A DNA stretch of 64,000 nt from assembly GCF_004346195.1 (NCBI RefSeq), contig NZ_SMAK01000004.1, positions 62,001 to 126,000 on the forward strand, in the 5' to 3' direction. The stretch comes from Tepidamorphus gemmatus (GTDB lineage Bacteria > Pseudomonadota > Alphaproteobacteria > Rhizobiales > Tepidamorphaceae). The notes beneath the pieces were generated by a model. The model had not been told where the DNA came from and did no database searches. It worked only from the letters and a program-made list of their open reading frames with translations. Positions 29,215 through 34,202 of the stretch are shown piece by piece (position 1 is the stretch's first letter; each line of letters opens with the position of its first letter). Position numbers and translations under genes: made by a program.

Positions 29215-29907
29215 TCAGCGCACGGTCCAGCCGCTCCAGGTGCTGCGCGGCTTGCGCGGCGTCTTGGCCGGTACCGGTGGCGGCGGCGACGTGCCTTCCA
29301 GGTCGTCCAGATCGACCTCCCCATTGACGATGCGGTCGACGAGATCCTGCGCGGTCTGGGCGCGCCGGGCCAGGGCTTCCTGCATCGCCTTCTGACGCTT
29401 GAGCATGTCGGCGATGTTCGTGCGCCGCACGCGCTCCTCCAGCACCTCCTCGATGCCATCAATGACGTAGTTGTCACCCTGCAGGACGAACTCCCGGTCG
29501 TCATGGGCAAGAAGCTCGATGCGCCGGCGCAGGACGACCGGTGAGACGGGCATCACGATGATGTTGGTCACACCGACCGAGAAGGCCCGGTCGACAAGGC
29601 TGAGCGTCGGCATCGGCGTGACTGCCAGGATGGGCACGAAGGACAGCGGCTCCATCGTCCGGTTTCGTATCAGCCGGGTCAGCCGGTAGCCGCTCATCGG
29701 CTTCATGTCCCACTCGGCGATCAGCGCGCTGGGCGGATCGATCAACATGTCGTTGAGTGCCTTCTCGGCGTGCTCGTAGACGCGCAGCCGGCCGATCCGC
29801 ATCGAGGAGATCATCGAGCGGAGGATTCCCTGGGCGCCCCGGTTGTCGTGCACGAGCACGACGTCCAGCGAGTCCAGCGGCAGTCCGTAGGCGAGGCTTT
29901 TCGGCAT
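29215..29907 (-). CDS. Degenerate response-regulator receiver protein
   Basis: A 230-residue cytoplasmic protein. A CheY-like receiver domain covers about residues 14-135, with the phospho-acceptor aspartate in LIAEWDMKPMSGY (Asp67), an acidic residue in VLVHDN (Asp21) and the threonine in LAVTPMP (Thr97). The normally invariant lysine (KP motif) is replaced: the strand reads IIVMPVSP, with Met119 in place of lysine. The C-terminal part is helical and charged with no DNA-binding or enzymatic domain I recognise, and ends in a proline-rich tail. The ATG giving MPKSLAYG is preceded by an AGGGGAG ribosome binding site. It is divergent from nrdJ. Confidence 0.85.
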   Translation of the reverse strand: MPKSLAYGLPLDSLDVVLVHDNRGAQGILRSMISSMRIGRLRVYEHAEKALNDMLIDPPSALIAEWDMKPMSGYRLTRLIRNRTMEPLSFVPILAVTPMPTLSLVDRAFSVGVTNIIVMPVSPVVLRRRIELLAHDDREFVLQGDNYVIDGIEEVLEERVRRTNIADMLKRQKAMQEALARRAQTAQDLVDRIVNGEVDLDDLEGTSPPPPVPAKTPRKPRSTWSGWTVR

Positions 29908-30011
29908 GTGCAGGATGCTCCCCTCATCGCGTCGGAACCCTACCCGGCCGGCTTTAAGTCCGCCTGAAACGGCCTTCGACAATTCGCTTCGAATCTGAAT
30001 CAATCTCCCAT

Positions 30012-30036
30012 GTGCCGGGCGCGGCGAGCCCGGCAC
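30012..30036. repeat. Perfect 9-bp inverted repeat upstream of the receiver gene
   Basis: GTGCCGGGC and GCCCGGCAC surround a 7-base loop, about 105 bases upstream of the receiver-protein start and 72 bases left of the first NrdR box. It could be an operator or an RNA hairpin in the receiver-gene leader. No T-run follows on either strand. Confidence 0.4.
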
Positions 30037-30107
30037 GGACGGATTGGCGGGACCTGGCCCGGTTGTCCCCGCTGTTCAGCGGCGGTTAGGACATTCTTAA
30101 CGCCGCG

Positions 30108-30123
30108 TCACTATATATTGCCG
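30108..30123 (+). promoter_or_regulatory. NrdR box 1 upstream of nrdJ
   Basis: The sequence TCACTATATATTGCCG contains CTATATATTG, which matches the central ten positions of the NrdR consensus (acaCwAtATaTwgtgt) completely. NrdR is the universal bacterial ribonucleotide-reductase repressor and binds pairs of such boxes. Confidence 0.8.
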
Positions 30124-30138
30124 TTGAAATTGGGCGGG

Positions 30139-30154
30139 ATACTAGAGCTTGTGA
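30139..30154 (+). promoter_or_regulatory. NrdR box 2 upstream of nrdJ
   Basis: The sequence ATACTAGAGCTTGTGA matches the NrdR consensus at 11 of 16 positions. Its centre lies 31 bases from that of box 1, three helical turns, which is the usual spacing of paired NrdR sites. It overlaps the proposed -10 element, as expected for a repressor site. Confidence 0.65.
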
Positions 30155-30473
30155 AAATCTGATGTCAGCGCCGGGGAATGGCCTTGACGCCCGTTGGTCG
30201 AGTCTCATACCGTTAATTCTGCCTCGGCGGCGGGTCGGGCCGACCCGGTTTCCGGGGAAATCAACAGTAGACTCAATGCGTTATCTCCGGCGCATGGCCG
30301 GAGGGCGAGATGTTGTTTGCGGCTGGGGCGCGGGGGACGGCATCCGACTGCTCCGACGGCGTCGGTGAGGCCCCCAGTCGGGTCGAGTCAACGTGTCGGG
30401 ACGGGGCTTTGATGGCCGGGCCGACTGGACCCGGGGCGGCAGGAATGCGCCGAGGCGCGAGCGGGGAGCCGAG

Positions 30474-33400
30474 ATGCGGATCGAACGAATCTACACGGTC
30501 GAGGGTAAGTCGCCCTATGAGGGCATCGAGTTCCGCAAGACCACCAGCGAGATCCGCAATCCCGACGGCTCGGTCGTCTTCCGCCTCGAGGACATCGAGG
30601 TGCCGGCGACCTGGTCACAGGTCGCCGCGGACATTCTTGCACAGAAGTATTTTCGCAAGGCAGGTGTCGCGGCGCGGTTGAAGCCGGTCGAGGAGAGCTC
30701 CGTTCCGCCCTGGCTGTGGCGCTCTGTGCCCGACACCGAGGCGCTGGCAGAACTGCCGGAATCCCAACGCTTCGGCCCGGAACGCGATTCGCGTCAGGTG
30801 TTCGACCGTCTCGCCGGCACGTGGACCTACTGGGGCTGGAAGGGCGGATATTTTGACAGCGAGGCGGATGCGCGCGCCTTCTTCGACGAGCTCGCCTACA
30901 TGCTGGCGACGCAGAAATGCGCGCCGAATTCGCCGCAATGGTTCAACACCGGCCTGCACTGGGCCTACGGCATCGACGGCCCCGGCCAAGGCCACCACTA
31001 TGTCGACTTCGAGACCGGCGAAGTCGTCGCCTCCACCTCCGCCTACGAGCATCCGCAGCCGCATGCCTGCTTCATCCAGTCCATCGAGGACGACCTCGTC
31101 AACGAGGGTGGCATCATGGACCTTTGGGTGCGCGAGGCACGGCTGTTCAAGTATGGCTCGGGTACCGGCTCGAACTTCTCGAAGCTGCGCGGTGACGGGG
31201 AGGCGCTGTCGGGCGGCGGCAAGTCGTCGGGACTGATGAGCTTCCTGAAGATCGGCGACCGGGCGGCCGGCGCCATCAAGTCGGGCGGCACGACACGGCG
31301 CGCCGCCAAGATGGTGGTGGTTGACGTCGATCATCCCGACATCGAAGCCTACATCGACTGGAAGGTGGTCGAGGAACAGAAGGTCGCCGCGCTGGTGACC
31401 GGTTCCAAGATCTGCCAGAAGCACCTGTCGGCGATCATGAAGGCCTGCGTGAACTGCGCGGGCTCCGGTGACGACTGCTTCGATCCGCAGAAGAACCCGG
31501 CACTGAAGCGCGAGATCCGTGCCGCAAAGAAGGCGCATGTGCCGGAGAACTACATCCGCTGGGTGATCCAGTTCGCCCGCCAAGGTTATACGTCGGTCGA
31601 GTTCCCGCTGTTCGACACGGACTGGGACTCGGAAGCTTATCTCACCGTCGCCGGCCAGAATTCCAACAACTCGGTGCGCGTCACCGATGAGTTCCTGCGC
31701 GCGGTCGAGAACGATGGCGAGTGGAAGCTGACCCGCCGGCTGGACGGCACGGTCGCCGCGACGCGCAAGGCCCGCGACCTGTGGGAGAAGATCGGGCACG
31801 CGGCATGGGCCTGCGCGGATCCGGGCATCCAGTTCCACACCACCATCAATGACTGGCACACCTGCCCGGCGGCCGGCGAGATCCGCGCCTCGAATCCGTG
31901 CTCGGAGTACATGTTCCTCGACGATACGGCCTGCAATCTCGCGTCGCTCAATCTCTTGCAGTTCCGCAAGGCGGATGGCTCGTTCGACGTCGCCTCGTTC
32001 GAGCACGCCACGCGTCTGTGGACGATCGTGCTCGAGATCTCGGTGCTGATGGCGCAGTTCCCGTCCCGCCGCATCGCGGAACTGTCCTATGCCTACCGCA
32101 CTCTCGGGCTCGGCTACGCCAATATCGGCGGACTGCTGATGACATCCGGCATCCCCTACGATTCGGACGAAGGCCGCGCGCTTGCCGGCGCGATCACCGC
32201 CCTGATGACGGGCGTGTGCTATGCGACCTCGGCCGAGATGGCCGGCGAACTCGGCGCGTTCCCCGGCTACGAGCCGAACCGCGAGCACATGCTGCAGGTC
32301 ATCCGCAACCATCGCCGGGCCGCGCACGGCGAGAAGGACGGCTACGAGGGGCTGAACACCCTGCCCGTGCCTCTCGATCATGCCTCCTGCCCCGACGCGT
32401 CGATCGTTGCGGCGGCCTGTCATGCCTGGGACCGGGCGCTGGCGCTGGGCGAGGAACATGGCTATCGCAACGCCCAGGTCACCGTGATTGCGCCAACTGG
32501 CACGATTGGCCTGGTGATGGACTGCGATACGACCGGTATCGAGCCCGACTTCGCGCTGGTGAAATTCAAGAAGCTTGCCGGCGGCGGCTACTTCAAGATC
32601 ATCAACCGGGCCGTGCCGGAAGCACTCGCCAAGCTCGGCTATCAGCCGGCCCAGATCGACGAGATCGTCGCCTATGCGGTCGGACACGGCACTCTCGCCG
32701 GAGCGCCGGCGATCAATCACGACACCCTCGCCGCGAAGGGGTTCACCCGCGAGAAGCTCGAACTGGTGGAAGGCGCGCTGAAATCCGCTTTCGACATCAA
32801 GTTCGTCTTCAACAAGTGGACTCTCGGCGAGGATTTCCTCCAGGGGGCCCTGGGCGTAGCGGCGGACCGACTGGCGGACCCGAGCTTCGACCTGTTGTCG
32901 GAGCTCGGGTTCAGCCGCCGTGACATCGACAGGGCCAACACCTTCGTGTGCGGCGCGATGACGCTGGAAGGCGCGCCGCACCTGAAGGAGGAGCACCTGC
33001 CGGTCTTCGACTGTGCCAATCCGTGCGGGCGCACCGGCAAGCGCTATCTGTCCGTCGAGAGCCACATCCGCATGATGGCGGCCGCCCAGCCGTTCATCTC
33101 GGGTGCCATCTCCAAGACGATCAACATGCCCAACGAGGCCACCGTCGAGGATTGCAAGTCCGCCTACATGCTGTCGTGGAAACTGGGGCTCAAGGCCAAC
33201 GCCCTCTATCGCGACGGCTCCAAGCTGTCGCAGCCGCTGTCGGCGCAGCTTCTGGCCGACGACGAGGAGGACGAGGAGGACGCGGTCGAGGCGCTCGCCG
33301 CCACCGGCCCGGTTCAGCCCAAGGCGGTCGCGGTCGCCGAACGGATCGTCGAGCGCATCGTCGAGAAGACGATCCGCGAGCGCGAGAAGCTGCCGCACCG

Positions 33401-34202
33401 ACGCAAGGGCTATACCCAGAAGGCCATCGTCGGCGGACACAAGGTCTATCTCAGGACCGGCGAGTACGAGGACGGCCGGCTCGGCGAGATCTTCATCGAC
33501 ATGCACAAGGAGGGCGCCGCCTTCCGCAGCCTGATGAACAACTTCGCTATCGCCGTCTCGCTCGGCCTGCAGTACGGCGTGCCGCTCGACGAATATGTGG
33601 AGGCCTTCACCTTCACGCGCTTCGAGCCTGCCGGATTCGTCCAGGGCAATGACTCGATCAAGAACGCCACCTCGATCCTCGACTACATCTTCCGCGAGCT
33701 GGCGATCTCGTATCTTGGCCGCCACGACCTCGGCCATGTCGATCCCTCCGACATCGGTTCGACTGCGATGGGGGCCGGCGTCGATGAGGGCAAGCCGATC
33801 CCGGCCGTGCCGGCGACTCGGTTCGTGTCGACGGGTCTGGTGCGCGGCAAGGTCAGCGAGAAGCTGGTGGTCGTGCACGGCGATGGTCGGAGCGAGGGGC
33901 GGGGACACGATCACCGTGCCGAGACGCCACGCGGCGGTACCGTCGGCCAGATCCAAGCCCGCGCGCAGAGTTTCACCGGTCAGGCCGGCAGCCAGGCGAC
34001 GGCACTGAAGCGCGAGGTCGCCGTGGCGATCGAACCGCAGACCGCCGTCGTCCCCCAGCCGACCGTGGCCGAACGCCGCGCGCAGGCGATGCTGAAGGGC
34101 TATGTCGGGGAGTCCTGCACCGAATGCGGCAACTTCACCATGGTGCGCAACGGCACCTGCCTGAAGTGCGACACCTGCGGATCGACGAGCGGGTGTAGCT
34201 GA
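30474..34202 (+). CDS. nrdJ: Vitamin B12-dependent (class II) ribonucleotide reductase
   Basis: A 1242-residue enzyme that reduces ribonucleotides to deoxyribonucleotides using adenosylcobalamin, with or without oxygen. It has the RNR barrel with the active-site cysteines in HACFIQSI and in [11 protein letters not shown] (Cys476), the glycine-rich [20 protein letters not shown] loop, and [22 protein letters not shown] long C-terminal region contains the TSAD-like segment and ends in a cysteine cluster, CTECG...[13 protein letters not shown], which can re-reduce the active site. The start chosen, [11 protein letters not shown], matches relatives; a longer frame from 30393 is less likely. Paired NrdR boxes lie upstream and a strong terminator downstream. 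Confidence 0.97.

Follow-up and report, generated by a model that had tools for sequence, protein, structure and literature searches.

The window, the whole 64,000-nucleotide stretch of DNA analysed, carries a class II ribonucleotide reductase gene and, upstream of it, a pair of NrdR boxes followed by a putative core promoter (P1). The features referred to below are these:

29215-29901, minus strand: response-regulator-like gene (PF00072), divergent to nrdJ
30086-30100, unstranded: CtrA-like TTAG-N7-TTAA (one mismatch from TTAA-N7-TTAA), shortly before box 1, of uncertain relevance
30108-30123, unstranded: NrdR box 1, letters TCACTATATATTGCCG, core CTATATATTG at 30111-30120; matrix rank 1
30139-30154, unstranded: NrdR box 2, letters ATACTAGAGCTTGTGA, core CTAGAGCTTG at 30142-30151; matrix rank 2
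30184-30189, plus strand: putative P1 -35, TTGACG, conserved in relatives
30200-30204, unstranded: GAGTC, a GANTC (CcrM-type) site between the -35 and the -10
30208-30213, plus strand: putative P1 -10, TACCGT, 18-bp spacer, assigned from TANNNT conservation
30220-30473, plus strand: putative 5' leader of nrdJ, start approximate
30474-34202, plus strand: nrdJ, class II (AdoCbl-dependent) ribonucleotide reductase, 1242 aa (NF005736, 2293 bits, cut-off 1737)

The profile match agrees with the sequence-only reading, which had named the downstream gene nrdJ from the letters, and the start at 30474 was set from the homologous start in relatives. The named relatives, whose best identity to this protein is 83% over the N-terminal third of NrdJ, are presumably Hyphomicrobiales, and the name of the order is taken from them.

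An nrdR gene was sought in the genome and is present at C4:262474-262911 (TIGR00244, 168.6 bits, cut-off 124.65), after a glyA-like frame named by eye, and its product has a Zn-ribbon (PF22811) and an ATP-cone (PF03477). No standout box pair lies near nrdR in this genome, matching the comparative prediction for Proteobacteria (186 NrdR regulons among 196 genomes), in which autoregulation of nrdR was never found (PMC5343134, whose excerpt contains no discussion of promoter position or GANTC). Searches of the genome gave no match for a class I small subunit or for NrdD. There is a second class II reductase of 795 aa on C3 (L053 358-2745, minus strand), and the 1000 bp upstream of its gene hold no NrdR pair, the best score being 13.6 versus 22.8 for nrdJ on one scale. 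Weaker reductase matches akin to the 795-aa enzyme occur in the other seven family genomes. A class I small subunit scored over the cut-off in 7 of 61 genomes in one set and in 50 of 114 in another (two of the 114 in the order); nrdJ is likely the main ribonucleotide reductase in Hyphomicrobiales, most of the genomes examined having no class I small subunit.

NrdR boxes have the core consensus CWATATATWG, with a full palindromic form of acaCWAtATaTWGtgt. Box 1 matches all ten core positions, as had been claimed, and box 2 matches seven of ten. Scored with an NrdR matrix, however, box 2 is not the weaker site that the sequence-only reading had made of it, as the two boxes reach 15.9 and 15.6 bits and rank first and second among 63,985 window positions. 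For the matrix, nrdJ upstreams of genomes outside the order were searched with a weighted version of this consensus, and the 59 box pairs that outscored 60 shuffles of the sequence they came from were used; the resulting matrix is independent of the window but not of the consensus used to pick the pairs. The pattern ACANNATNTTGT, tried as a box scan, gave 63 matches against 33.4 expected and was reached by both boxes only with two mismatches, and it was therefore replaced by the weighted consensus and then by the matrix. The boxes stand where they had first been placed, with a 15-bp spacer and 31 bp between centres, and box 2 ends 319 bp before the nrdJ ATG. When partners for box 1 were scanned at 17-60 bp, the best distance was 31, in agreement with the three-turn spacing seen in the letters. 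Centres about three helical turns apart are the preferred NrdR geometry (PMC12051234). The pair scores 31.5, whereas no pair in 40 Markov-1 nulls of 64 kb exceeded 16.0.

Within the order, none of 200 dinucleotide shuffles reached the best 15/16-bp pair in 47 of 59 nrdJ upstreams (61 genomes), and five of the remaining 12 belong to second nrdJ copies (L057-L061). Among the 66 nrdJ upstreams from outside the order, 57 beat 60 shuffles, and a repeat run gave 59; this set comprised 69 of 73 listed long matches, less L213 and L233 (not at a start codon) and L227 (short). The order set of 137 upstreams was obtained from 139 by removing the duplicate L070 and the short L060, and includes second nrdJ copies and two sequences with no start codon at the start (L054, L132). 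A lenient pattern, CWANATNTWG-N21..22-CWANNNNNWG, which had been loosened to admit the window's box 2, fits two places in the 3.775-Mb genome (32 contigs), with no match for its reversed control. The second place (L149 1498-1544; core stretch G000:C3:212595-212635) is a well-formed NrdR-like pair inside an rsmG-like frame with parA/parB-like genes adjoining (genes named by eye), and is probably a chance match. That the pattern also fits within a coding frame would be a reason to take the window's pair for chance as well, a view contradicted by the shuffle nulls of the nrdJ upstreams and the Markov-1 nulls of the window, and one we find scarcely credible.

We put the probability that 30108-30154 is the NrdR operator of nrdJ, acting most likely on P1 downstream, at a little over 0.8. 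As an NrdR operator it is of an ordinary, known kind: two NrdR boxes also precede the class II reductase gene in S. coelicolor (nrdRJ) and P. aeruginosa (nrdJ), where nrdR likewise encodes a Zn-ribbon and an ATP-cone (PMC9110341, PMC4409342). In S. coelicolor, however, nrdRJ is an operon (PMC9110341), whereas here nrdR does not adjoin nrdJ.

The pair could instead mainly serve the divergent response-regulator gene. The sole sigma-70-like consensus promoter in 29900-30480 lies on the minus strand, directed toward this gene, and its hexamers (30168-30139) overlap box 2; moreover, a relative of the gene was found by tblastn upstream of nrdJ in 27 of 111 loci, the window included. Against such a target, the -10 of this promoter is not kept in the relatives L003 and L004 (by eye), and box pairs accompany nrdJ itself in 57 of the 66 genomes outside the order, leaving it quite improbable that the divergent gene is what the boxes chiefly control. 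The CtrA-like site on the same side of the boxes has a counterpart, differing from TTAA-N7-TTAA at no more than one position, at almost the same location in each of the relatives that share the window's upstream operator (L003, L004 and L006); that of L006 is perfect. As a general promoter feature across the order, CtrA sites were rejected, being present in 8 of 66 promoters at a density of 0.00076 versus a background of 0.00067 per base.

Relatives share a conserved promoter of the form TTGACG-N17/18-TANNNT, whose best counterpart in the window is 30184-30213, with a -35 that begins 29 bp past the end of box 2. Among 66 P1 motifs, TANNNT stands at offset 22-25 from TTGAC in 45, versus 0 to 6 at 16 control shifts. 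The window's TACCGT agrees with TATAAT at 3 of 6 positions, and a sigma-70 consensus scan of 29900-30480 returned no plus-strand promoter, P1 itself going undetected. The sequence-only reading had the two boxes overlapping a plausible -35 and -10. From the conserved block, the core promoter is probably at 30184-30213, beyond box 2, so that this overlap is probably wrong for the window; it appears right for most comparable promoters of the order, in which the final letters of box 2 are TTGACG and box 2 thus overlaps the -35.

For 63 of the 66 P1 motifs, a significant pair lies in the interval from 110 bp upstream to 25 bp downstream of TTGAC. The start of box 1 precedes TTGAC by 41 bp in 39 of the 63 order promoters with a significant pair, and in the non-redundant set of order promoters TTGAC begins at offset 10 of box 2 in 48 of 70. 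The upstream layout of the window is common to four of seven family genomes (the window, L003, L004 and L006), which have box 1 76-77 bp before TTGAC and whose -35/GANTC/-10 blocks align; L008, L025 and L062, also of this family, have box 1 41-42 bp before TTGAC. In a protein tree the four form a group of moderate support (89/74) whose sister is L008, and L025 lies elsewhere (L062 was too short and was left out). This branching makes the upstream operator position look derived. A MAFFT alignment of the seven family leaders sets the -35 of L025 and L062 opposite TTGCCG in the window's box 1 and not opposite P1; the alignment is ambiguous about the homology of the promoters and the order of events, and slightly lowers our confidence in the operator and P1 reading. 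A shift of the operator by roughly one box may have occurred.

The same alignment, in placing those -35 elements opposite the end of box 1, lends something to the idea that the boxes overlay a promoter at about 30118-30145 (e.g. TTGCCG, 16 bp, TACTAG), where NrdR would block RNA polymerase directly. The frequent coincidence of TTGAC with box 2 in the order (the 48 of 70 above) and the promoter overlap often seen for NrdR operators (PMC9110341) point the same way. However, the scan gave no plus-strand promoter, the TTGACG/GANTC/-10 block lies downstream of box 2 in L003, L004 and L006 as it does in the window, and conservation of the proposed hexamers cannot be ascribed to a promoter, since their letters are also box letters. 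We consider an overlaid promoter unlikely, and prefer P1 downstream of the operator. Known systems offer both arrangements. In P. aeruginosa, box 1 overlaps the -10 (PMC4409342), whereas in the window the pair seems to precede the core promoter. In S. pneumoniae, the -35 and -10 of nrdHEF are both downstream of box 2, like those proposed for the window, and in nrdDG the -35 falls within box 2, which is also the usual arrangement among the comparable promoters of the order; the spacers there are 24-26 bp compared to 15 bp here, and the reductases are of class Ib and class III (PMC12051234).

By analogy with S. coelicolor NrdR, high dATP would lead dATP/ATP-loaded NrdR to bind both boxes as a tetramer, kink the DNA and repress nrdJ. 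With P1 downstream of the operator, NrdR would repress by bending the DNA or by obstructing the region that precedes the promoter, not by covering the -35 and -10. P. aeruginosa nrdJa lacking nrdR is up aerobically and down anaerobically (PMC4409342), indicating that NrdR is not always a plain repressor.

Further downstream, a weak second box-like pair (30271-30286 and 30302-30317, 15-bp spacer) scores 18.4, which 0 of 100 mononucleotide shuffles reached. A P1 pair and a downstream pair are both present in 27 of 66 P1-bearing promoters, counting the window with its weak one, and these, together with the three of 66 P1 motifs that have no significant pair nearby, suggest that another promoter may exist. 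A regulatory RNA in the leader was also considered and found no support: no Rfam family matched at gathering score, a lax setting returned one chance-level match on the minus strand (E 2.8), and the leader folded no better than its shuffles (z -0.67; 43 of 200 folded at least equally well).

The GANTC site inside the putative promoter was absent from the sequence-only reading. Of the 137 upstreams of the order, 66 have TTGAC-N8..12-GANTC in the 620 bp before nrdJ, versus 1.2-1.4 in shuffles and 2 on the antisense strand, and four sense-strand controls (one of spacing, three of words) gave 5, 6, 7 and 17 of 137. By subset, the motif is present in 24 of 58 upstreams taken mostly from one genome per family and in 42 of 79 of the named set. 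Outside the order the strict motif was found in 2 of 66 upstreams, and GANTC accompanied pair plus TTGAC in 1 of 13. The whole genome contains TTGAC-N8..12-GANTC 35 times, versus 16 for a reversed control, so the motif alone means little in one genome and the case rests on conservation.

An initial control found GANTC close behind 42 of 117 TTGAC words outside the box region. Most of these 42 belonged to the nrdJ promoter, which there precedes a second and stronger box pair, and the test was therefore redone without GANTC in the ascertainment, choosing promoters by box pair and TTGAC alone (107 of 137). GANTC then occurred in the gap between -35 and -10 in 70 of the 107, first of 256 abNcd words with the next at 31, and was missing from 37. 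After thinning at 70% identity, which leaves some relatedness, GANTC was present in 42 of 70 and the next word in 18, and in this non-redundant set the middle base varied (GAGTC 19, GAATC 10, GACTC 8, GATTC 5). A link between the GANTC promoter and nrdJ as sole reductase was rejected, as genomes of the class without class I lack the promoter as a group (strict motif in 2 of 66 overall).

Both candidate readers of such a site have genes in this genome: gcrA (PF07750, 187.5 bits) and a ccrM-like gene for a 381-aa N6 methylase (PF01555 and a RAMA domain). The latter lies between rnhB-like and mutY-like frames (by eye), which we take to be the usual ccrM setting. In Caulobacter, cell-cycle start sites with GANTC between the -10 and -35 form one timed group that fires at 40-60 min (PMC4287350), an arrangement like that of P1, and GANTC methylation enhances GcrA binding (PMC3667746). 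Caulobacter nrdA, a class I gene, has a conserved promoter GANTC and is expressed at a lower level when CcrM is absent (log-ratio -0.47 by array, -0.77 by qRT-PCR); it has already been proposed as directly CcrM-activated, and is not marked in the GcrA regulon (PMC3973325). This proposal slightly raises the odds of a CcrM role at nrdJ, with the difference that the gene here is class II and has an adjoining NrdR pair.

The presence of GANTC between -35 and -10 in the majority of comparable order promoters suggests that P1 may be read by CcrM and GcrA too. Methylated GANTC, perhaps with GcrA, would then help polymerase to initiate nrdJ transcription at a fixed point of the cell cycle. Our tentative proposal, to which we give just short of an even chance, is that the nrdJ core promoter of Hyphomicrobiales is now CcrM-dependent and probably read by GcrA, with methylation tied to replication setting the timing of nrdJ transcription in the cell cycle, and NrdR, on the -35 or immediately upstream of it, providing shut-off at high dATP; in the window's sub-lineage the operator sits about 35 bp further upstream, placing the two controls apart on the DNA. 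It is also plausible, at somewhat poorer odds than a coin toss, that the GANTC of P1 is a tolerated or ancestral spacer or the site of another factor, with no CcrM or GcrA role at nrdJ. The 37 of 107 order promoters that do without it and the 35 genome-wide words suit that explanation, as does the common ancestry of these orthologues, whose counts are not independent events. The window site, CGAGTCT, also agrees at 6 of 7 positions with YGAKTCG, the extended motif reported for Caulobacter activation (PMC7987155), so the extension is not fully present, although the excerpt of a Brevundimonas study reports that no extended motif was detected there. A tolerated spacer accounts less well for GA and TC arms that are kept while the middle base varies, as expected for a CcrM site, for the first rank of GANTC among 256 patterns (42 of 70, next 18), and for the conserved GANTC and lower expression without CcrM at Caulobacter nrdA (PMC3973325).

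Among the matches listed from open-licence PMC literature, in the excerpts concerned, we found no link between nrdJ and CcrM or GcrA. PMC6538847 contains both terms, but nrdJ comes up there in the legend of a figure on B12 pathways; in PMC9437464 the phrase 'ribonucleotide reductase' is confined to a reference; PMC8725594 contains no nrd word; and PMC2500167 mentions that E. coli nrdAB may be under NrdR-linked cell-cycle control and, separately, Caulobacter regulators.

To our knowledge, how Alphaproteobacteria match dNTP supply to once-per-cycle replication has not been worked out. If the GANTC of P1 works via CcrM and GcrA, dATP feedback and an epigenetic cell-cycle signal would converge on one short stretch, as a class II counterpart of the class I nrdA proposal in Caulobacter, and CcrM control would have become attached to different reductases by lineage (nrdA in Caulobacter, nrdJ here). 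Such a link would be testable in standard laboratory strains of the order, and the features worth testing are the GANTC conserved in the core promoter of nrdJ and the operator's position in this sub-lineage. Two further GANTC words stand in the putative leader, at 30270-30274 and 30385-30389.
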